Shown here one piece after another: positions 4,652 to 61,920 of a stretch of 64,000 nucleotides of DNA. The stretch is from contig JAGKXB010000005.1 of NCBI GenBank assembly GCA_021151485.1, positions 1 through 64,000 of the forward strand, in the 5' to 3' direction. The first letter of the stretch is position 1, and each line of letters starts with the position of its first letter. The notes under the pieces are model-generated. The model did no database searches. It saw only the letters and a list, made by a program, of their open reading frames with translations, and was not told the origin of the DNA. Both the position numbers and the translations under genes were made by a program. Origin of the DNA: Oxalobacteraceae bacterium. GTDB lineage: Bacteria > Pseudomonadota > Gammaproteobacteria > Burkholderiales > Burkholderiaceae_D.

Positions 4652-4694
4652 ACCGTCACCCCCGCGTTCCCGCCTACCACTGCGGGAACGACGG
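4652..4694 (-). repeat. REP-like palindromic repeat, copy 1
   Basis: Inverted repeat between the convergent ends of valS and the FNR-type gene. Read on the minus strand it begins CCGTCGTTCCCGCAGT, continues through TAGGCGGGAA and ends with a GTGACGG arm. It shares this core with the repeat at 29819-29909 and with a degraded half at 59851-59886. This is the extragenic palindrome pattern often seen in betaproteobacteria. It could also act as a weak terminator for either flanking gene, although no long T-run follows. Confidence 0.7.
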
Positions 4695-21097: not shown

Positions 21098-21126
21098 ATA
21101 TAGGGATAGGTATTTTGTTTTTCAAG
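21098..21126 (-). promoter_or_regulatory. Sigma-32 type heat-shock promoter of groESL
   Basis: On the minus strand CTTGAAA (21126-21120) is followed after 14 bases by CCCTATAT (21105-21098), close to the RpoH consensus CTTGAAA-N(11-16)-CCCCATnT. It directly abuts the CIRCE operator, so groESL would be under both positive (RpoH) and negative (HrcA) heat control, as known in some betaproteobacteria. Confidence 0.8.
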
Positions 21127-21167
21127 ATAATCTTGATCAAAATTTTATGATCAACATTATCTTGAAA
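21120..21167. repeat. Long inverted repeat spanning the groESL -35 region
   Basis: Arms TTTCAAGATAATCTTGATC and GATCAACATTATCTTGAAA are reverse complements except for one position, around a 10-base AT loop. The inner end of the groESL -35 box is part of one arm, and the other arm carries a second CTTGAAA-like sequence facing the other way. It lies between the aroC stop and groES. It could be an aroC hairpin end or an extra regulator site. Confidence 0.75.
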
Positions 21168-29818: not shown

Positions 29819-29909
29819 TCCGTCGCTCCCGCAGTTTTAGGCGGGAATCCAGTGGCGTTGAAACGGCAAAAGTCACTGGGCTCCCGCCTAAAACCGCGGG
29901 AGCGACGGA
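29819..29909. repeat. REP-like palindrome, long two-arm copy
   Basis: Ninety-one base element after argG. The outer arms TCCGTCGCTCCCGC and GCGGGAGCGACGGA pair exactly, and inner segments TTTTAGGCGGGA / TCCCGCCTAAAA and CCAGTG / CACTGG also pair, giving a nearly complete long hairpin. Each half has the core seen at 4652-4694 and 59851-59886. It may also help to end the argFG transcript. Confidence 0.85.
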
Positions 29910-31667: not shown

Positions 31668-32993
31668 ATGGAAAGCATTCTTTTAATGATCGTTGCCATA
31701 GCGCTCGTCGCGCTAAATGGTTTTTTCGTGGCAGCAGAATTTAGTCTTGTTAAATTACGACCAACGCGCATTCGTGCAATTGCTAAAAAACATGGTTTGC
31801 TGGGGCGTATTCTCACTAAAGTACATGGCCAACTGGATGCTTATTTATCTGCTTGCCAACTCGGTATTACCTTAGCTTCGCTTGGTTTGGGCTGGATTGG
31901 TGAGCCTGCATTTGCTAATTTGCTTTCGCCTTTGTTTCACCTAACTGGCATCACGAATCAAGAAATTATCCATAGCATTTCATTTGCTTTCGCCTTTTTT
32001 GTCATTTCGTTTCTGCATATCGTGGTTGGGGAATTGGCGCCAAAATCGATGGCGATTCGCAATCCGGACAAAATTGGCTTGTGGAGCGCATTGCCACTTT
32101 ATGGTTTTTATTGGTTGATGTATCCAGCAATCTGGATGCTGAATGCCAGCGCCAACTGGGTATTACGATTGGCAGGCCTAGATAACACAGGACATATGCA
32201 GGATAGCCATTATTCTGCGGAAGAACTCAAGCTGATTCTGCGTACCAGTCGCCCTGACGGCAAGTTCACGCATGACGAATGGAATGTGCTGGCGCAAATT
32301 CTGGATTTCAGCAAACTACAAGTGTCCGATTGTATGCGTCCGATTCATGAGCTGGTATTTTTGCAGAAAAACAAATCCTGGCAAGACAACATGGACATCA
32401 TTGCCGCCAATCGATTCAGCCGTTACCCTTACTTTGATGCAGAACACAAAGTAATGGGAATGATTCATCTCAAAGATTTATTTTTAGCACAACAAGAAGG
32501 TAAATCCATTGCCAATCTGGATGAGTATTTACGCCCAATACAACACGTGACACCACATCTGTCTGCTTTGGAGCTGTTCCGCCGCTCCCGCAAAGGCGCA
32601 CCACATTTCATCATGGTGACAGAACCAGGAAACAGCGTGCAGGGATTTCTAACACTGGATAACTTGCTCAGCGCGTTGGTGGGAGAAATTTCTGATGAAT
32701 TCCGTCAAAGTGACAATGAATGGACACGTCTCAACGATGGTAGTTTGATAGGCAAAGGCAGCATGCCTATTTTTACGCTAGAACGTATTTTAGGTATCGA
32801 TATTGAAAACGAAAAGTTCAATCTGGAAGACGCCGAATCCGTAGGTGGACTGATTATGGAGAAACTAGGAGATATTCCCAAAGAGGGGCAACGCATCATT
32901 TTTGAACAATTCGATATTTTGATCAAACAAATGCATGGGCCACGTATTGCATTAGTGCAAGTATTTCCTAAAGAGTTAGCTGCAAAGATGTGA
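31668..32993 (+). CDS. CNNM/CBS-domain membrane protein, hemolysin C / CorC family
   Basis: 441 residues from the chosen start. The N-terminal DUF21/CNNM membrane domain has about four helices (first MESILLMIVAIALVALNGFF; LGLGWIGEPAF is conserved). A CBS pair lies at about 220-340 and a CorC_HlyC domain at the C-terminus (about 350-440). The family is linked to Mg/Co efflux. The frame opens earlier at GTG 31638, but ATG 31668 begins the membrane segment and fits the family. The 3' end overlaps nnr by 18 bp tail to tail. A decayed copy of its last ~45 codons lies at 36491-36630. Confidence 0.9.
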   Translation: MESILLMIVAIALVALNGFFVAAEFSLVKLRPTRIRAIAKKHGLLGRILTKVHGQLDAYLSACQLGITLASLGLGWIGEPAFANLLSPLFHLTGITNQEIIHSISFAFAFFVISFLHIVVGELAPKSMAIRNPDKIGLWSALPLYGFYWLMYPAIWMLNASANWVLRLAGLDNTGHMQDSHYSAEELKLILRTSRPDGKFTHDEWNVLAQILDFSKLQVSDCMRPIHELVFLQKNKSWQDNMDIIAANRFSRYPYFDAEHKVMGMIHLKDLFLAQQEGKSIANLDEYLRPIQHVTPHLSALELFRRSRKGAPHFIMVTEPGNSVQGFLTLDNLLSALVGEISDEFRQSDNEWTRLNDGSLIGKGSMPIFTLERILGIDIENEKFNLEDAESVGGLIMEKLGDIPKEGQRIIFEQFDILIKQMHGPRIALVQVFPKELAAKM

Positions 32994-34526
32994 TGTTATG
33001 CCATCAACTTCACTTGTCAAACTGTTTAATAACGTACGTACGGGCAAGATTAACTCACTGGCAGTCAGCCCTATTGGCCCTACTCCTTGCTCGACCAACA
33101 CATCAGCCGCTTTGCCATGCAGCCAAACAGCAGCCAACGCTGCGTCTCTTGCAAACCACCCCTGTGCTAACAAAGCACCACCAACACCGGCTAACACATC
33201 CCCGGTACCAGCTGTCGCCAAACCCGGATTGCCAGTCGGATTAATGATTACGTCACTATTTGGCGATGCAATTACCGTACCTGTTCCTTTGAGGATGAGG
33301 TATGCCTGATATTGATCACTTAAAGTACGAGCAGATCGTAAACGATCTGATTGTACTTCTTGGAGACTGCATCCCAATAAGCGCGCAGCCTCTAAAGGAT
33401 GCGGAGTCATCAATGTAGGACTGATACGCTGCGCCACTTTTTGTTGCAACCCCTGATCTTGAGCAATTAAATTCAATGCATCCGCATCAAGTAACATGGG
33501 AGTATCAAACTCCAACACCCGCGCAAGTAAAGCATGCGCCTCGCTTGACAATCCTAAACCAGGGCCAACGACCAACGTGGCAGAAGAAAAATCAAATGTA
33601 TCTGGTGACCGACACATTAACTCCGGCTCGTTTCCATCGTAAGTTAAGGTTTCGTCAAGCGAAACAACAAAAACTCGACCGGCACCAGAATGCAGAGCAG
33701 CACGCCCTGCCAATAAAACGGCGCCAACCATGCCTGGCGCACCACCAACGATAGCAACATTCCCATAAGTGCCCTTGTTCGTATGGTGGAGACGTTGCTG
33801 CAATGATGATTGAAACAAATCCACACTATTGAGAAAAATCCGTGAAGCAAGCTGATTAATATACAGGTCACCAGTTTCCAAATCAGCAACATATACTTTA
33901 CCGGCACAATCTCTACCATAAAGAGTGTGGAGGCCGACTTTGTCGGCAATAAACGTAATGGTTGCTGTAGCACGTATTGCTACACCGCCTTGTTCTATAC
34001 CAACGATATTGCCCGTGTCGGCATCCAAACCACTTGGTACATCCAGCGCCAGAATGGGTGCTGGCAAAGCGTTAATAGCATTGATCAACACCTTCAAATC
34101 ACCCGTGATGGGGCGCGTTAAACCAATACCAAACAAACCATCAATGATTAAATCCCACGTTATCGAAGTAATACGAAATATGACATCCTGAACGTTGCTC
34201 ATCGCCATAAAATGCACCGCACTGTGCCGAGCACGCGCCATAGCCAATGTAAACTCCGGCGATTCTTTCATGCCTGGGTAATGTAAAAGTGTGACTTGCG
34301 TTCCTCTTTGTGCCAACTGATACGCAAGCTCCAACGCGTCTCCACCATTATTACCAGGACCTGCCAACACCAATACTTTTGCTTGCGTCAATGGCAGGGC
34401 AAGATAATTCAATGCTACCTTTGCGGCCTCCAAACCAGCGCGCTGCATAAGCGTCGCCACGGGCAAATCGGCAGCAGCGGCTCGCTCAACAGCAAGAACA
34501 TTATCAATTGTATAAAGAGAATGCAT
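32976..34526 (-). CDS. nnr: Bifunctional NAD(P)H-hydrate epimerase / ADP-dependent dehydratase
   Basis: Repairs damaged NAD(P)H hydrates. The N-terminal YjeF_N epimerase domain (about 1-215) contains VLVLAGPGNNGGDALELA and DGLFGIGLTR. The C-terminal ribokinase-like dehydratase domain (about 230-510) contains VVGPGLGLSSEA, DADALNLIA and the catalytic GTGDVLAG. Length 516 residues is typical for the fused form. It overlaps the end of the CorC-type gene and sits 68 bp from the stop of the GH18-like gene 34595-36421, on the same strand. A second copy is expected but absent beside the corC remnant, see findings. Confidence 0.94.
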   Translation of the reverse strand: MHSLYTIDNVLAVERAAAADLPVATLMQRAGLEAAKVALNYLALPLTQAKVLVLAGPGNNGGDALELAYQLAQRGTQVTLLHYPGMKESPEFTLAMARARHSAVHFMAMSNVQDVIFRITSITWDLIIDGLFGIGLTRPITGDLKVLINAINALPAPILALDVPSGLDADTGNIVGIEQGGVAIRATATITFIADKVGLHTLYGRDCAGKVYVADLETGDLYINQLASRIFLNSVDLFQSSLQQRLHHTNKGTYGNVAIVGGAPGMVGAVLLAGRAALHSGAGRVFVVSLDETLTYDGNEPELMCRSPDTFDFSSATLVVGPGLGLSSEAHALLARVLEFDTPMLLDADALNLIAQDQGLQQKVAQRISPTLMTPHPLEAARLLGCSLQEVQSDRLRSARTLSDQYQAYLILKGTGTVIASPNSDVIINPTGNPGLATAGTGDVLAGVGGALLAQGWFARDAALAAVWLHGKAADVLVEQGVGPIGLTASELILPVRTLLNSLTSEVDGITSHLCS

Positions 34527-34594
34527 TTTTACCGATATTGTTACTATTCAACAATATACAAATCACCTTAAAGTACTTCATACGTACCTAATCA

Positions 34595-36421
34595 TCAGAT
34601 GGAATCAGCATCGTATGGAACTGCTTGTCCGAGTACATAACTTACAAAACTTTCAATAAGATCCAAATGACTAGACACGCCTACCCCCCCAGTTTCTGAT
34701 GCGCTGTACGACTCAATAGAAAAAGAGCCCGATGAGGAAACGGCTGATTCTGAGGTTATATTTTTAGGAGCGGAAGTATCCAACGCTGATTCTTCGTCTG
34801 GAAGTTGGTGATGATTGCCCCCATCTTGCACAACAGCAACAAAATCTCCGGGTCCATGATTTTCTAATGTCGTGTCACGTCTGCAATTTATATACGCGAT
34901 ATATGCAACAAGTGGAATTGCCAATAATGCTATTAAGCCTAATGGCCGGAGATCATGCGTATTTTTTAAGTCATCGGTTAAAAATTGAGAATCGTCGCTT
35001 AAATATTGAAAACAATCTTCTACTTTTTCAGCAAGTCGACAACAATCCTCATCGGTATCAATTAGATGTCCTGTCTCATCACTACTCAACATGACATCTG
35101 GTCCACATACATTCTCACCATCGATATCCAACAGATAAGCATCCCAAACTGAAACGCGTAATGTATATTCCTCCCCAGATATATTAAACGCAATATATTT
35201 GTATTGATCTTCTTGGAAGGGAGTATTTTTTATATCATTAGCCAAATCAAATGCACAGGAAGAATTATTCCCCCCGGCCATACTTTCCCCTTTTAACGCT
35301 GTCAGATAAGCATCTTGCAATGACTCACCCAACAAATCCAAACTCCATAATCCATGACGTAATAAGCGAATCGTAATATCACTACCATTACGGTTGATGC
35401 TGATGCCTTTATCAGACAGCGCTTTTGTGCGCTCTAATAAATTTTCTGGTGTCGGACACCATATGCCAGCATACCGGCCATCTGGAATTTGAAATTCAAG
35501 ATAGTCAGGATGTACCTGAATTCTTCCTTCATTACGCAAACGACTGAGTTCAGTTGCCATATCTTTTACGGCAGTACCATCGGAACAATATGCTGGGCTC
35601 AGCATAACAAGACTGGCTTCAATTTCCGCTACTGTCAATTCCGCATCTAGGAGTTGATTGGCCACATAGAAAAGGACACCTTGGATATCATTACTGATCA
35701 GTACAGTACCATCTACCGTCGTGTATCCCCCTGCCCGCGAATAAGGTGCTTGAGGATCTGTCGAATACTGGTTCCAATCGTAACCAGAATAAACCCATTT
35801 ACACTCTATATTGTGCGTTTTGGCCAATCTGGCAATATCTTGAATCGGCATTTGAGTCAACAGCCAAGTTGACGAAAGACTCATACTCACCTTTGCATCA
35901 GATATATGTGTCTTCAGTGCTCCAAACAATTCATTGATCAATAAAAGAATATTGTCTCTATTCGTATCAACATTAAAAATTGATTCCAAATCAGACTGAA
36001 TATTCAAATTACAATCTTTGTAACCATCACTGCGCATTTTCTCTACGACATTGCTAACAAATTCCTGTCTTGATCCAGCAGCAGAAGCCATGATGAGAAA
36101 TGATAAGGAATCGATAGCACTCCCTATAGACAACACGGGTGTAGCACCTGCATTAGCAATGGCACTCCTCGTATCATTGAACTGAGTCCATCTCTTATTT
36201 TCGTCACAAGGACTTTCGATCCAACTACACGAGTGCAATGAACCATCACTTGCCAAAGAAATATAGACAGGCGCGATACTGGCGCCTATTGTTTCCCGAC
36301 CAAAACTCACATTAGGAGACCAAATTTCCTTATAAAGCATATCCAAGGAAGTTGTTTTATTTGCAATTTTATTGGCAGTGGTAAGAGTTGATGCGATAGC
36401 CAATGATCCAAACAAATTCAT
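34595..36421 (-). CDS. GH18-like secreted/anchored protein, catalytic acids lost (paralogue A)
   Basis: 608 residues, paralogous over almost its whole length to the 588-residue product of 36648-38414. Features of glycosyl hydrolase family 18 can be recognised: VLSIGS (residues 96-101), the place of the DxxDxDxE motif at 135-142 and GYDWN near 213-217. At the motif this copy reads CNLNIQ (N138, N140, Q142), while the sister has D, D and E: all three acids became amides by single-base changes. A hydrophobic segment at about 491-513 (GLIALLAIPLVAYIAYI) suggests a C-terminal membrane anchor, followed by a Ser/Asp-rich tail of ~95 residues. The N-terminus may be a weak signal. Probable pseudoenzyme, perhaps a glycan-binding one. 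It lies 226 bp upstream-adjacent to a corC remnant. Confidence 0.7.
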   Translation of the reverse strand: MNLFGSLAIASTLTTANKIANKTTSLDMLYKEIWSPNVSFGRETIGASIAPVYISLASDGSLHSCSWIESPCDENKRWTQFNDTRSAIANAGATPVLSIGSAIDSLSFLIMASAAGSRQEFVSNVVEKMRSDGYKDCNLNIQSDLESIFNVDTNRDNILLLINELFGALKTHISDAKVSMSLSSTWLLTQMPIQDIARLAKTHNIECKWVYSGYDWNQYSTDPQAPYSRAGGYTTVDGTVLISNDIQGVLFYVANQLLDAELTVAEIEASLVMLSPAYCSDGTAVKDMATELSRLRNEGRIQVHPDYLEFQIPDGRYAGIWCPTPENLLERTKALSDKGISINRNGSDITIRLLRHGLWSLDLLGESLQDAYLTALKGESMAGGNNSSCAFDLANDIKNTPFQEDQYKYIAFNISGEEYTLRVSVWDAYLLDIDGENVCGPDVMLSSDETGHLIDTDEDCCRLAEKVEDCFQYLSDDSQFLTDDLKNTHDLRPLGLIALLAIPLVAYIAYINCRRDTTLENHGPGDFVAVVQDGGNHHQLPDEESALDTSAPKNITSESAVSSSGSFSIESYSASETGGVGVSSHLDLIESFVSYVLGQAVPYDADSI

Positions 36422-36490
36422 AACAAGCCTTATGGTTACTTAAAAAATATTACAAAAAAAGAAACACCAATATCATTTCACCATTCATAG

Positions 36491-36630
36491 ATGAACGAAA
36501 TCCTGAAGTGGGGAGATATGCCAACCGAAAGCCAACACATCGTTTTTGAACAATATTCTGATCAAAAAGAGGCATAACCCACGTGATGTATTCATACAGT
36601 TTTTTAAAGCAGCGCAGGACAAAACATAGT
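36491..36630 (+). pseudogene. Remnant of the CorC-type gene 3' end
   Basis: The start ATG at 36491 opens a 28-codon frame (MNEILKWGDMPTESQ...) that aligns with the C-terminus of the CorC-type protein: KLGDIPKEGQRIIFEQF against KWGDMPTESQHIVFEQY, 10 of 17 identical. The DNA resemblance continues past the frame's stop (ATTCTGATCAAA, CCACGT, TTTTTTAAAG) to about 36630 with small indels, so it is a frameshifted remnant of the last ~45 codons. It has the same orientation as the intact gene at 31668-32993. It lies between the two GH18-like paralogues. The exact end point is uncertain. Confidence 0.7.
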
Positions 36631-36647
36631 ATGCGAACACACGTTAA

Positions 36648-38414
36648 TTATGCATCTTCATCACGATACCTTGGGCTATTAAATACCCTTACGGCTTGTG
36701 CCGTTATAGGCATCATATCGAACCCGTCTATTGAATGCTCAGATGATGGCAAAACTTCTGCAACGACTAAGTTAGCTGGGGCCTCTAGGTCTACATCTAT
36801 ATAAGGTATCACCATTGCATGAGTATCAACAATCTCAGATACCTGCATAGAAACTGGATATGCATCTGCATCAGCTTTTTCCCCGTACTTTAAAATGCAG
36901 GGAATGACGCACAAAAAGAGAAAAAAGAAATATCTTGGATCGAAAGCATTACCTGAACTACTGCCCGAGGCTTGATCAGTTGAAAAATGGCTATAAACCT
37001 TTTCAGAAAGCTGGCAGCGATGCTCGTCAGTATTAATTAACTGTCCAGTATCGTCATGCTCGAATGCTATTCCGGCACCTAAAATATTCTGACCATTCAC
37101 ATCCAGCAAATACGCATTCCAAGCCGAAACTTGTAAGGTATAACTGGCTCCGTTAACATCAAAAACGACATTTTTAAATCCATTTGTACCTGCCTGAGCA
37201 TTTTTGATATCGTTGGCCAAACTTACCCTACAAGCACTGCCCCCCGAATCATCAATACTTTCTCCCTTCATCGCTTTTAAATAAAGTGATTGTAGAGACG
37301 AACCCACTCCATTCAAACTCCATAATCCATACTTGCTAATGTGAATAGTGATATCTACACCATTGCGCGCAATCCGAATACCCTGATCAGTCAATGTCTG
37401 CTTACGTGCTATCAGCGCCTCCGGTACCGGGCACCACACATTCGCATAAGGACCATCCGGAATTTGGAACTCCAGATAATCCGGATGTATCTTAATTTTC
37501 CCCTCGCTGCGCAAACGACTTAATTCATTTGCGACATCTTTTACGGCCATATTATTTGAACAATATCCTGAATGACCCACAACAAGATTAGCTTCAATTT
37601 TCTCCGCCGTCCACCCTGCACTCAACAACTCATTAACAATATAGCTAAGCGCACCCTGTATGTCATTGCTAAACAGTTTGGTTCCATCTATCGTCCAGCG
37701 ATCTCCTGGTCTAAAAAAAGGAGCTTGTGGCTGTTGAGCATTGTCATTCCAGTCGTAACCAAAATAAAACCACTCACATGCTATCTTGTGTGTGTCGGCA
37801 GAAGTCGCAATCTCACGAATCGGTGTTTGGGTTAAAAACCAAGCTGGCGCCAAGCCAAATTTCACCGTGACATTCGGAATATGTATACTCAACGCAGCAA
37901 ATAGCTCATCTGCCAACAAAGCGATATTCGCTTTATTGGCACTGACACCTAACCCCGTTGAAAAATCCCCCTCAATATCCAAATCAAGATGTTTATAACC
38001 ATCATTCAACATTCGATTGATGACATTATCAATAAATGTTTGTCTCAACCCTTCAGAAGCTGCAATGGTGAGAAATGGTGCGGAATCTAAAGCACCACCT
38101 ATCGACAACACTGGGGTCGCACCTGCATCCAAACTAGCTGCTTGATGTTGTGCTAACGTATTCCATCTTGCCGCTTCATTACAAGCCGTTTCCGTTAAGC
38201 CACAAAAATGTAATGAACCATCATCTCTGGGATACACAAAAGCCATCGAAACTTCAGCACCTTGTACATCAGCGCCAAAATTCACACTATTTAACCAAGT
38301 TTCATCGTAAAGCATGCCCAAAGAGGCTGTTTTGTTTGTAGCAAATACAGTCGGTGCTGTCTTCATTACATTGTGTGCAGCAGCACCTACTGCCAACATT
38401 CTTAATACATTCAT
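36648..38414 (-). CDS. GH18-like chitinase family protein (paralogue B)
   Basis: 588 residues. GH18 hallmarks: VLSIGGALD at 102-110 (SxGG), LDLDIEGD at 143-150 giving D144, D146 and the catalytic-type E148 (the first acid of DxxDxDxE is Lys141), and GYDW at 219-222 like the family's YD pair. Seven cysteines or more suggest an exported protein; the N-terminal 25 residues (MNVLRMLAVGAAAH...TVFA) could be a signal peptide. A hydrophobic run at 495-507 (YFFFLFLCVIPCIL) suggests a C-terminal membrane anchor with a ~75-residue tail. Could bind or cut a chitin-like or peptidoglycan-like glycan. The family match is by motif only; the substrate is unknown. Confidence 0.65.
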   Translation of the reverse strand: MNVLRMLAVGAAAHNVMKTAPTVFATNKTASLGMLYDETWLNSVNFGADVQGAEVSMAFVYPRDDGSLHFCGLTETACNEAARWNTLAQHQAASLDAGATPVLSIGGALDSAPFLTIAASEGLRQTFIDNVINRMLNDGYKHLDLDIEGDFSTGLGVSANKANIALLADELFAALSIHIPNVTVKFGLAPAWFLTQTPIREIATSADTHKIACEWFYFGYDWNDNAQQPQAPFFRPGDRWTIDGTKLFSNDIQGALSYIVNELLSAGWTAEKIEANLVVGHSGYCSNNMAVKDVANELSRLRSEGKIKIHPDYLEFQIPDGPYANVWCPVPEALIARKQTLTDQGIRIARNGVDITIHISKYGLWSLNGVGSSLQSLYLKAMKGESIDDSGGSACRVSLANDIKNAQAGTNGFKNVVFDVNGASYTLQVSAWNAYLLDVNGQNILGAGIAFEHDDTGQLINTDEHRCQLSEKVYSHFSTDQASGSSSGNAFDPRYFFFLFLCVIPCILKYGEKADADAYPVSMQVSEIVDTHAMVIPYIDVDLEAPANLVVAEVLPSSEHSIDGFDMMPITAQAVRVFNSPRYRDEDA

Positions 38415-38687
38415 AAAAATCCTGATTGCTCATTTTTAACTAAATTGCAATCAAATTACAACTAAATTACTCATAGCCAAAAACAAAAATTAACAATAAA
38501 TCATGCAAATAAGTAATTATAAAAATAGTAATGACAAATATCAATTAATCATTAACAAGAAATATAAAGTACCAACCCAAAACATCATGCTTTTTTCAAT
38601 GACGTGTTAAAAACGGTAAAATGCCAACACGTATCATTCTCAAAAAAACATTAACAATCTGAGTCGCTCAATTACCAGCAATCAAGT

Positions 38688-40391
38688 ATGTCCAACACTA
38701 CCTCCAGCTCCAACTTTCTACGCAACATCATTGAAGAAGATCTTGCCGCCGGCACGCACACACGCGCTGGCTTGCCCTCTGTCATTACACGCTTCCCCCC
38801 TGAGCCCAATGGCTATTTGCACATCGGCCATGCCAAGTCGATTTGTCTTAATTTTGGCTTGGCACGCGATTATGTCGGACGTTGTCATTTGCGCTTTGAC
38901 GATACCAATCCCGAGCAAGAAGAGCAGGAATACGTCGACACCATTATTGATTCCGTGCAATGGTTAGGTTTTAGCTGGCAGCATCAAGAGCAGACGCATT
39001 TGTACTACGCCAGCAATTATTTCGAACAGTTGTATGCGATGGCTGAATATCTGATCCAAGCCGGTCATGCCTACGTAGACAGCCAAAACGCCAAAGACAT
39101 GGCAGCTAATCGAGGCAGTTTTTCTGAAGCCGGGAAAAATTCACCTTACCGCGAACGCTCAGCCGAAGAGTCGCTGGCATTATTCCGTCGTATGAAGGCG
39201 GGGGAATTTGCAGATGGCGAACACGTGCTACGCGCCAAGATAGACATGGCATCGCCCAATATGAATATGCGCGATCCGGCCATTTACCGCATTCGCCACG
39301 CACATCATCACCGCACTGGCGACACCTGGTGTATTTATCCAATGTATGACTACACCCATCCTTTATCCGATGCGCTGGAAAACATCACGCACTCGATTTG
39401 CACGCTGGAATTCCAGGATCACAGGCCGTTTTACGATTGGATTATTGCGCGCTGTGCCGAGGGTGGATATTTCCAACAACCCGTCCCACAACAATATGAA
39501 TTCGCCCGCCTCAATCTGACTTATGTCGTCACCAGCAAACGCAAACTGCGCCAACTGGTAGAACAAGGCATCGTCAATGGCTGGGATGATCCACGCATGC
39601 CCACCATTGTTGGGCTACGTCGTCGTGGTTACACGCCAGAATCAATACAACTGTTTTGCGAACGCATCGGCGTCACCCGCTCAGACGGCTGGATAGACAT
39701 GAGCACCTTAGAAGGTTGCCTGCGCGAAGACTTAGATCCCAAAGCACCACGTGCCACTGCTGTGTTACGTCCTTTACAACTCATCATCGATAACTTGGCT
39801 GACGGTGTTGCGATCGAATGCAGCGCACCAGTTCATCCGCATCATCCTGAACACGGCATGCGCACTTTTCCACTCAGTAATACATTGTGGATAGAGCAGG
39901 AAGATTTTATGGAAGTACCCAGCAAGGGCTATTTCCGCCTCTTCCCTGGCAATAAAGTGCGGTTACGTCATGGCTTCGTAGTGGAATGCACCGGTTGCGA
40001 CAAGGATGAACAGGGCAACGTGATCGCCGTACATTGCAACTACTTCCCTGACAGCCAATCCGGCACACCAGGCAGCGCCAATTACAAGGTCAAAGGCAAC
40101 ATCCACTGGGTAAGCGCAGCACACGCTTTATCGGCTGAAGTTCGCTTATACGACAGATTGTTTACCGACCCCAATCCTGATGCGGGCGGCAAGGATTTCA
40201 TCACCTTGCTTAATCCTAATGCCTTAGAAGTCGTGCAAGCATATCTGGAACCAGGCATGCGCGATGCGCTACCGGATGCACGTTACCAATTCGAGCGACA
40301 CGGTTATTTTGTCGCGGATAGAGTGGATTCTGTAGCCGAGAAACCGGTGTTTAATCGAATTACCACATTGAAGGATTCTTGGGCGAAATAG
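38688..40391 (+). CDS. glnS: Glutaminyl-tRNA synthetase
   Basis: Class I synthetase that charges tRNA-Gln directly. The HIGH motif is HIGH in PPEPNGYLHIGHAKS (about residues 38-52), and the KMSKS equivalent is VTSKRKL near residue 285. The catalytic core and the C-terminal anticodon-binding beta-barrels are present. Length 567 residues is normal. Its presence implies direct glutamine charging rather than amidotransferase-only charging. It lies 273 bp from the divergent GH18-like gene and is followed 12 bp later by thiL. Confidence 0.97.
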   Translation: MSNTTSSSNFLRNIIEEDLAAGTHTRAGLPSVITRFPPEPNGYLHIGHAKSICLNFGLARDYVGRCHLRFDDTNPEQEEQEYVDTIIDSVQWLGFSWQHQEQTHLYYASNYFEQLYAMAEYLIQAGHAYVDSQNAKDMAANRGSFSEAGKNSPYRERSAEESLALFRRMKAGEFADGEHVLRAKIDMASPNMNMRDPAIYRIRHAHHHRTGDTWCIYPMYDYTHPLSDALENITHSICTLEFQDHRPFYDWIIARCAEGGYFQQPVPQQYEFARLNLTYVVTSKRKLRQLVEQGIVNGWDDPRMPTIVGLRRRGYTPESIQLFCERIGVTRSDGWIDMSTLEGCLREDLDPKAPRATAVLRPLQLIIDNLADGVAIECSAPVHPHHPEHGMRTFPLSNTLWIEQEDFMEVPSKGYFRLFPGNKVRLRHGFVVECTGCDKDEQGNVIAVHCNYFPDSQSGTPGSANYKVKGNIHWVSAAHALSAEVRLYDRLFTDPNPDAGGKDFITLLNPNALEVVQAYLEPGMRDALPDARYQFERHGYFVADRVDSVAEKPVFNRITTLKDSWAK

Positions 40392-59834: not shown

Positions 59835-59850
59835 GTCAGGTTACGCACTC

Positions 59851-59886
59851 GTCGCTCCCACTGATTTAGGCGAGAAACCAGTGTAT
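59851..59886 (+). repeat. REP-like repeat, degraded half copy
   Basis: Single half of the repeat, reading TCGTCGCTCCCACTG then TTTAGGCGAGAAACCAGTG. It matches the left half of the element at 29819 in most positions but has lost its partner arm and two pairing Cs. It lies between ppk and trmB on the plus strand. Confidence 0.6.
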
Positions 59887-59995: not shown

Positions 59996-60754
59996 ATGCC
60001 AACAAACGATCCCATCAACGATCCTATCCAGACCCCCACCAACAATCTCGCAGAGAAAAAAAACAGAAGTCCACTTTACGACCCAAGCGAACACCGCATT
60101 CGCAGTTTTGTAACGCGTGCCGGGCGCTTATCAGTTGCACAGGGACGCGCGATGGATACGCTGGGGCCACAATTTTGCATTCCCTACACAAAATCGATAC
60201 TCAATTTTGAACAAAGCTTTGGACGCACAGCCCCCACCATCTTTGAAATCGGATTTGGTATGGGCGAAACCAGCGCACACATTGCTGCTGGCATGCCAGA
60301 CAAAAATTTCATCGGCGTCGAAGTCCATACACCCGGAGTCGGCAGCTTGCTTAAACAAATCGGTGAACGCAGTTTATCTAATCTGCGCCTGATTCAACAC
60401 GATGCAGTCGAAGTCATCACCAACATGATCCCACCAACATCGCTAGCGGGTGTGCATATTTTCTTCCCCGACCCATGGCACAAAGCACGCCATAACAAAA
60501 GGCGTTTAATCCAATCACCTTTTGTCGCATTGCTAGCCTCCCGCATCGCACCAGGAGGCTATTTACACTGCGCCACCGACTGGCAAGATTATGCGGAACA
60601 AATGTTGGATGTGTTAAGTGCTGAACCCACATTGCAAAACACAGCTAATGGCTATGCCTTACGACCGGACTACCGTCCCGTAACCAAATTCGAAAACCGG
60701 GGCGTTCGTTTGGGACATGGTGTCTGGGATTTGCTGTTTCACAAGCGTAGTTGA
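59996..60754 (+). CDS. trmB: tRNA (guanine-N7-)-methyltransferase
   Basis: Methylates G46 in tRNA variable loops. Signature stretches [16 protein letters not shown] (SAM site), [35 protein letters not shown] and [16 protein letters not shown] identify the family. The ATG at 59996 (MPTNDPIND) is preferred to the GTG at 59987. Length 252 residues, with an N-terminal tail rich in Pro/Asn. The last 96 bp overlap, on the other strand, the end of the LRR gene; that overlap does not affect trmB. Confidence 0.95.
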
Positions 60755-61384
60755 ATTACTACTGACACCAACATTCATTTGTTGTTTCGTTTGCCGCGAA
60801 CGAACTTTTTTTAGATTTGTATTTTTTGAAGAAGTGGGTACATCAGCCACGCCAATTTGAAATTTAAAGAGGGCATTGAGAAAAGCTGGATTTTGCCCTC
60901 TATCAATATCTATAGGACTCTCTCTATGTATCGCTAATAATTGACCAGTAGACTCACTCACGGAAGTTGGGCTCACTCTACGGTCATCCAATAATATCTT
61001 CACGTTTGGCAATGCCTTATGAATATCTGCAATTGAGATACTTAATTCTGGGTTCCCGCGTAAATCCAACGTTTCTAATGACAACAACACCCCCAAATCT
61101 GATGGTAATCTTTGCAAAAAAGTATTGCTTAAATTCAATTCCTTAAGTTGTGTCAAAAATGGCAATAAATTTTTGGGGAAATCAATGATCGTACATCCTG
61201 ACAAATCTAAAAAAGTCTGCTGTTTTTCTCGACATTCATCCACTCGCAAATTGGCTTGTTCTGACAAACTGTCTAACTCCATCATAGCCAAATTAAATTT
61301 TTTTTCACTTTTCTCACCTATATTTGAGTAACTTACTGAACTGCTAACAATTCTAGAATTATTACTATTATTAACCTGGAACAT
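60659..61384 (-). CDS. Leucine-rich-repeat protein, 3' end overlapping trmB
   Basis: 241 residues. Leucine-rich repeats span about residues 57-131: [39 protein letters not shown] and [13 protein letters not shown], with the LxxLxL pattern and about 23-residue periods. The N-terminal ~50 residues are polar and Ser-rich. There is no signal peptide or membrane segment. Residues 211-241 ([13 protein letters not shown]...) are read from the antisense of trmB, so the original tail was probably lost. Host-interaction LRR proteins of intracellular bacteria resemble this, but the function is not known. Its upstream DNA is AT-rich. Confidence 0.6.
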
Positions 61385-61763
61385 AAAAATATTATTAAAT
61401 TGATAATTAATTTGACATAAAAAAAAGAAAAAATTAAGAATAAATACATATCCCCAATCATTTTTCTTGCTTTTTAAATAATATCATAAAAACATTGTTT
61501 TATTTTTAATTAAGTAAAAAATAAACAACAAAATCCAACTTTGCAACCAACCAACACTACTCAGGCTCAATTTGGACGGTATTGAAGGATCAAAAGACAC
61601 AAATTCCAGCTCTAGGCGAAGATAAGCGAGGAATATTCATTTATTAATTAACAAATGAATACAGGTAATACAGATTAAATAATTTACCGAACGGATTTTC
61701 TATATAAAACAATCCGTGAAACAATGGAAAAATGCTCGGATTTTTTGATAGAATACGGCCCGC
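61385..61763. other. AT-rich intergenic region between the LRR gene and tRNA-Thr
   Basis: About 380 bp, very AT-rich near 61385-61520, and likely to contain the LRR promoter. A hairpin ATTCATTTATTAAT...AAATGAAT lies at 61635-61660. A possible -10 (TAGAAT) for tRNA-Thr lies at 61749-61754. No gene was recognised. Confidence 0.5.
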
Positions 61764-61839
<76 letters not shown>

Positions 61840-61841
61840 GT

Positions 61842-61876
61842 AATAAAAATGGGCTCCAACGGGGCCCATTTTTATT
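61842..61876 (+). terminator. Terminator after tRNA-Thr
   Basis: Hairpin AATAAAAATGGGCTCC / GGGGCCCATTTTTATT with one mismatch and a T-rich end, just after the CCA end. Confidence 0.88.
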
Positions 61877-61920
61877 AAAACTAACGCAATAGTAGTCACT
61901 CACTTTTTAGTTCCCCTACT

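Follow-up and report, generated by a model that had tools for sequence, protein, structure and literature searches.

How a piece of one gene came to lie between two related copies of another is the question raised by a short spacer in the window, the 64,000-nucleotide stretch of an Oxalobacteraceae genome that was analysed. The spacer separates two GH18-like paralogues, GH18A and GH18B, and resembles the 3′ end of an intact corC-like gene located to its left. The original prediction had explained this arrangement by tandem duplication of a corC tail–nnr–GH18 block, followed by deletion of the second nnr and decay of the tail. No account of the locus was found in the part of the literature that was available. 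The features on which the analysis rests are as follows.

31668..32993, + strand: intact corC-like gene with CNNM, CBS and CorC_HlyC domains, the source of the remnant
32868..32993, + strand: 3′ end of corC matching the remnant, from the alignment
32976..34526, − strand: nnr-like gene with YjeF_N and Carb_kinase domains; no second copy detected
34595..36421, − strand: GH18A, a GH18-like paralogue; motifs SIGS and NLNIQ; hydrophobic C-terminal segment starting at residue 493
36491..36577, + strand: ORF of 28 codons, the first 7 without corC alignment, the remainder being the first part of the remnant
36512..36629, + strand: corC remnant, decayed copy of corC from codon 401 through the stop; clear as far as 36592–36609, weak from there to 36629
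near 36553: 5-bp deletion in the remnant, relative to corC
36627..36629, + strand: TAG stop of the second frame of the remnant, one codon short of collinear with the corC stop
36648..38414, − strand: GH18B, a GH18-like paralogue; motifs SIGG and DLDIE; hydrophobic C-terminal segment starting at residue 490
38688..40391, + strand: glnS, the right-hand neighbour

Organisation of the locus

GH18A and GH18B are adjacent, share the same orientation and flank the remnant, which is found on the + strand like the intact corC, in the orientation expected from a tandem duplication. The CNNM, CBS and CorC_HlyC domains of corC all score above their Pfam cut-offs. The gene resembles the CNNM/CorC family in having the polyamine exporter PaeA as its best NCBIfam match, although at 143.9 of 500 bits it lies far below the cut-off of that model. 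The nnr-like gene overlaps the corC end by 18 bp and, spanning about 1.6 kb, separates the intact corC from GH18A. In contrast, only 18 bp separate the remnant stop from that of GH18B, with nnr not between. The remnant and the intact gene therefore bear the same relation to a GH18-like neighbour, as originally proposed, only if nnr is ignored. A promoter and terminator scan of positions 32800–38800 placed no site inside the remnant; this region contains 11 promoter-like sites (shuffle mean 15.8) and 10 terminator-like sites (shuffle mean 5.3). Most likely, the remnant itself does nothing beyond spacing two leftward-read genes.

The spacer carries a decayed copy of the corC 3′ end

The local alignment of positions 36512–36609 with corC positions 32868–32973 scores 56; in 1000 dinucleotide-preserving shuffles the score averages 21.7 and never exceeds 34. 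With a word size of 7, blastn aligns 36512–36592 with 32868–32953 in 86 columns, 72% of them identical, and gives an E of 5e-8 for a search of the window. When the whole genome was searched (2.18 Mb in 88 contigs), the corC 3′ end was the sole strong non-self match of the remnant (E 1.3e-6), the next best being 26 bases long (E 0.016). The remnant is also found independently by tblastn, in two pieces corresponding to corC residues 399–415 and 416–433 (E 6e-5). As a control, 31 spacers that separate the larger ORFs of the window, each 60 bp or longer and together 7227 bp, were compared by tblastn with the proteins of the window. The corC remnant is the sole convincing gene fragment among them: three other protein-to-spacer rows reach E 0.014, 0.036 and 0.082, blastn rows from a spacer to other genes are at most 25 bases long with E 0.013 or worse, and the remaining blastn rows lie between or within spacers and are mostly palindromes. 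The resemblance to the corC tail noticed originally is thus borne out by blastn, shuffles and tblastn, and chance resemblance is ruled out by the shuffle maximum and by the spacer control.

The spacer between the GH18 genes carries a copy of the last ~41 codons of corC, about a tenth of this transporter-like gene. Bases upstream of 36512 match corC no better than chance (p 0.63), so that homology can be detected from about 36512 on rather than from 36491, and the limits first proposed, 36491..36630 with ~45 codons, are too wide at the start. The first 14 homologous codons (401–414) are retained in a single frame. Directly after them the frame is broken by the 5-bp deletion, which leads to the stop at 36575–36577 that closes the 28-codon frame. 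The second frame, 36555–36629, reads ILIKKRHNPRDVFIQFFKAAQDKT followed by TAG, and its corC counterpart reads ILIKQMHGPRIALVQVFPKELAAKM followed by TGA, the two ends being collinear within one codon. Because this frame runs to a stop nearly level with that of corC, the copy plausibly extends to the corC stop. The stretch after the first 65 bp is weaker (p 0.021 alone) and its DNA alignment contains small gaps, initially of 1 and 2 bp, which together amount to one codon, with others after these, so that additional small indels are likely in the later part of the remnant. Thus, the predicted frameshifts after codon ~28 resolve into one clear break, located after 14 homologous codons, and the plural was not wrong if those smaller indels are counted. 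Past the remnant stop the alignment to corC again stays at chance level (p 0.47). The homology spans only about 120 bp and is bounded on both sides, and the longest identical run between the two corC tails is about 11 bases.

Origin of the remnant within this lineage

Orthologs of corC were found in 18 of 59 relatives, at 61–75% identity; the others hold distant CNNM genes only. Over 87 comparable bases the remnant is identical to its own corC at 64 and to the best ortholog at 52. In a maximum-likelihood tree of 87 aligned bases including the 18 orthologs, the remnant groups with its own corC with an ultrafast-bootstrap support of 99, on a branch of 0.44 that is four times longer than the 0.11 of the intact gene. 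Leu-418 and His-423 are common to the remnant and its own corC and occur in 0 of the 18 orthologs. At position 421 the remnant has Lys, and at position 428 Val, both matching the ortholog majority (16/18 and 12/18, respectively) where its own corC differs. Besides corC, the genome has two CNNM-type matches, which share only 24% and 27% identity with it. A foreign or unrelated CorC-type source is ruled out by the tree and by the shared residues Leu-418 and His-423. Tree grouping, branch length and broken frame together indicate that the remnant is a decayed copy of the 3′ end of this corC, made within this lineage, and the original identification as a decayed duplicate of the gene's own tail is upheld.

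Among the five compared positions that are invariant in the 18 orthologs, three are kept in the remnant (401, 404 and 412) and two are changed (G424N and I427D). Over 29 codons, changed and unchanged positions do not differ significantly in ortholog variability (p 0.34), which gives no sign of lasting selection on the remnant. Within the first 14 codons, changes tend toward variable positions (p 0.09). Read from the broken frame, the two changed invariant residues and the longer branch, the remnant is no longer under protein-level constraint.

The two GH18-like proteins

GH18A and GH18B are 49% identical over their matched part. Both narrowly pass the Pfam GH18 model (PF00704), with 33.3 and 31.4 bits, respectively, for a cut-off of 29.6, and they are the only GH18 matches in the whole genome. 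The catalytic acids of GH18 enzymes are carried by the motif DxDxE, which is present in GH18B as DLDIE (residues 144–148) and is replaced in GH18A by NLNIQ (residues 138–142). The motif regions, at 35990–36028 in GH18A and 37965–38003 in GH18B, contain the codons AAT TTG AAT ATT CAG and GAT TTG GAT ATT GAG, respectively. Three first-position changes are the sole differences in these 15 bases, and they convert all three acids to amides. GH18A seems to have lost its catalytic acids and, with NLNIQ in place of DLDIE, is probably not a hydrolase. In both proteins a hydrophobic segment begins at about residue 490, and the tails beyond it are unalike.

A profile built from GH18A and GH18B matches solved chitinases weakly, the best match (E 5.8e-4) being gapped at the acid motif. 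Its alignments to one plant chitinase (E 0.0097) and one mouse chitinase (E 0.017) extend to the motif, pairing LDLDIE with LDLDWE. The structural model of the whole protein is poor (pLDDT 39) and that of the GH18B barrel part is of low confidence (pLDDT 55.7, pTM 0.62). The barrel model has 1226 PDB matches at E ≤ 10, of which the best 50 belong to chitinases or chitinase-like proteins, with TM values of only 0.33–0.42. The pair thus shares with GH18 chitinases and chitinase-like lectins (Ym1, CHI3L1/YKL-40) its narrow passage of the family model and, for the barrel model of GH18B, the best 50 PDB matches. It differs from them in the C-terminal hydrophobic segment, the unalike tails, the NLNIQ of GH18A and the lack of any other homologue among 7996 scored proteins. 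These 7996 were the candidates sharing most words among 5.8 billion proteins, and they yielded only GH18A and GH18B themselves; GH18B has a match in 0 of the 59 relatives, which include no congener. A collection scan with a GH18 gene also gave no match, a silence that says little, since the same scan with corC returned nothing although relatives hold orthologs.

We tentatively consider, at somewhat under even odds, that the pair represents the birth of an enzyme and a pseudoenzyme, in which GH18A, its acids changed to amides, would bind the sugar cut by GH18B, both being perhaps exported and anchored C-terminally. Sugar binding by GH18A and export of both proteins are predictions from sequence. 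At this locus a paralogue that looks catalytic stands next to one that does not, a compact example of such a pair, for which no other homologue was found.

A tandem duplication as the preferred explanation

The remnant is a true, ordinary scar of an old local duplication. As its GH18-like neighbours are paralogues, one tandem duplication would explain both the pair and the remnant. A recombination or replication slip would have duplicated, in direct orientation, a block containing the corC 3′ end and a GH18-like gene, and the GH18 pair would stem from the same event. Having neither a start nor a function, the truncated tail of corC would then have taken the 5-bp deletion and drifted. The nnr gene would either have been part of the block, to be deleted later from the second copy, or have entered beside the first copy afterwards. 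The two GH18 genes would have diverged, the catalytic motif being preserved in GH18B and its three acids all being lost from GH18A. We regard one direct duplication of the corC 3′ end together with a GH18-like gene, followed by decay of the tail, as the probable course of events, with considerable room for doubt; the joint duplication is the simplest account, not a proven one. The remnant is valuable here as a marker, suggesting that the GH18 pair arose locally and was not imported as two genes.

Gene-end pseudogenes between bacterial paralogues are known scars of tandem duplication. The locus resembles such scars in its direct orientation, in the truncated copy of a flanking gene between paralogues, and in drift with a small deletion. 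In contrast, the second nnr is absent, duplicated flanks of the GH18 genes are undetectable and the ancestral order was not found in relatives. At a threshold of E ≤ 1, neither the spacer nor the rest of the genome shows a trace of a second nnr, apart from matches no longer than 30 bases. A tandem duplication calls for a second copy of every gene of the block, and only one nnr was detected; loss after the duplication would explain this. Upstream of the two GH18 genes no shared homology was detected (p 0.06 with mononucleotide shuffles, in AT-rich sequence), nor was any between the remnant–GH18B and nnr–GH18A spacers (p 0.18).

The single-copy order corC–nnr–GH18–glnS, for which the original prediction looked to relatives, was not found at the loci inspected in them. 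At the 18 corC ortholog loci, inspected over about 8–10 kb on each side (one being cut by a contig end), nnr, GH18 or glnS were nearby in 0 of 18. All ten relatives whose genomes were searched for nnr and glnS have both, and the order of the window occurs at 0 of 9 glnS loci and 0 of 6 nnr loci. That order therefore cannot be called ancestral. Near glnS, one locus (L092) carries a CNNM paralogue that is only distantly related (23%); several kb from nnr lie part of carB (L096) and aceB (L097); and in one genome (G014) glnS and corC share a contig in loose linkage, about 19 kb apart. Thus, of the duplication originally proposed, the decayed tail and the GH18 paralogues are in place, but there is neither a second nnr nor an ancestral order in relatives, and the clock is not clean.

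Relative age of the tail and of the GH18 pair

Being nearly free of constraint, the remnant can serve as a yardstick for dating the event. Over 447 well-aligned codons the GH18 pair has a dN of 0.40 and a dS of 1.38 (NG86), differing at 218 of 447 third positions and at 49 of 86 four-fold sites (95% range 0.465–0.674), which corresponds to a K of 1.07. Including the unalike C-terminal tails raises these figures to 309/582 third positions, 57/97 four-fold sites and a dS of 1.50 (NG86). Between the remnant and corC, 12 of 38 third positions are different, in an alignment gapped to favour identity and thus biased toward a young appearance. The third-position difference is smaller for the remnant than for the GH18 pair (Fisher p 0.044; 0.060 on residues 95–473 only). 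When one event with immediate decay was simulated at K 1.15, the observed score was reached in 0.25–0.5% of runs. A second decay model gave 0.14–0.32 at 0.4 substitutions per site per lineage, which is near the lower limit, 0.016–0.054 at 0.5, 0–0.014 at 0.6, which is about the point estimate, and 0 at 0.7. At 0.6, between 0 and about 11% of the detectable simulated cases (score ≥ 35) reach the observed score. The remnant branch of the tree comes near to half the K of the GH18 pair, in keeping with what is expected from one event.

The GH18 pair thus appears more diverged than a tail decaying from the start would predict, a mild tension with one event that is seen at the point estimate and is tolerable at the lower limit, that does not amount to rejection and that becomes weaker once the C-terminal tails are removed from the divergence figures. 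The tail may postdate the GH18 split somewhat, the second corC may have been functional for a while, or both may stem from one event.

Alternative origins

An insertion at the corC 3′ end is one unlikely alternative. Here corC would once have been beside GH18B, a block with a homologous corC tail, nnr and GH18A would have recombined in, the present corC tail would be the incoming one and the remnant the displaced original. The short distance between the remnant and GH18B, the occurrence of nnr near corC in none of the ortholog loci and a GH18 split that may predate the tail duplication are all compatible with this course. Integrating elements are known to leave displaced gene 3′ ends and to bring a replacement end, as e14 does in icd, and the locus has in common with that case one gene's 3′ end present twice, in direct orientation, with other genes between. 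It departs from e14 in having no integrase between the copies, no conserved attachment core and GH18 paralogues on both sides. The only sizeable genes between the tail copies, nnr and GH18A, are neither an integrase nor a transposase, the two tails lack a long identical core, and GH18A and GH18B would have to become neighbours independently.

A separate small event, copying a corC-tail fragment into the spacer with no relation to the origin of the GH18 pair, is similarly improbable. It would account for the short, doubly bounded homology and for the greater third-position divergence of the GH18 pair. Against it stand the position of the remnant exactly between the paralogues, in the orientation predicted by tandem duplication, and the lack of any convincing fragment of a window gene in the other spacers.

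The preferred duplication also has a variant, less probable still, in which the second corC copy was long complete and functional and was lost recently. In the K 1.15 simulation, the observed score is attained in 33–50% of runs if the copy stayed functional for half of the time, and in 96–99% if it did so for 80% of the time; the lean of changes toward variable positions in the first 14 codons would also fit. In contrast, no such bias extends across the 29 codons, and the rest of a second corC leaves no trace in the genome.

Chance resemblance, or a small functional ORF whose ATG at 36491 opens the 28-codon frame, can be given almost no weight, considering the alignment score beyond every shuffle, the homology that continues past the frame break into the second frame, and the absence, by eye, of a ribosome-binding site before 36491.

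Other observations in the window

An inverted repeat of about 90 bp is found in the spacer at 29819–29909, with partial copies at 4667–4694 and 59850–59883 in two spacers, and is perhaps a dispersed palindromic element. Other self-complementary spacer stretches lie at 21120–21167, 61634–61661 and 61841–61877. Positions 60659–61384 encode a leucine-rich-repeat protein, whose matches to the XopL, XopAC and XopAE type III effector models are far below cut-off.
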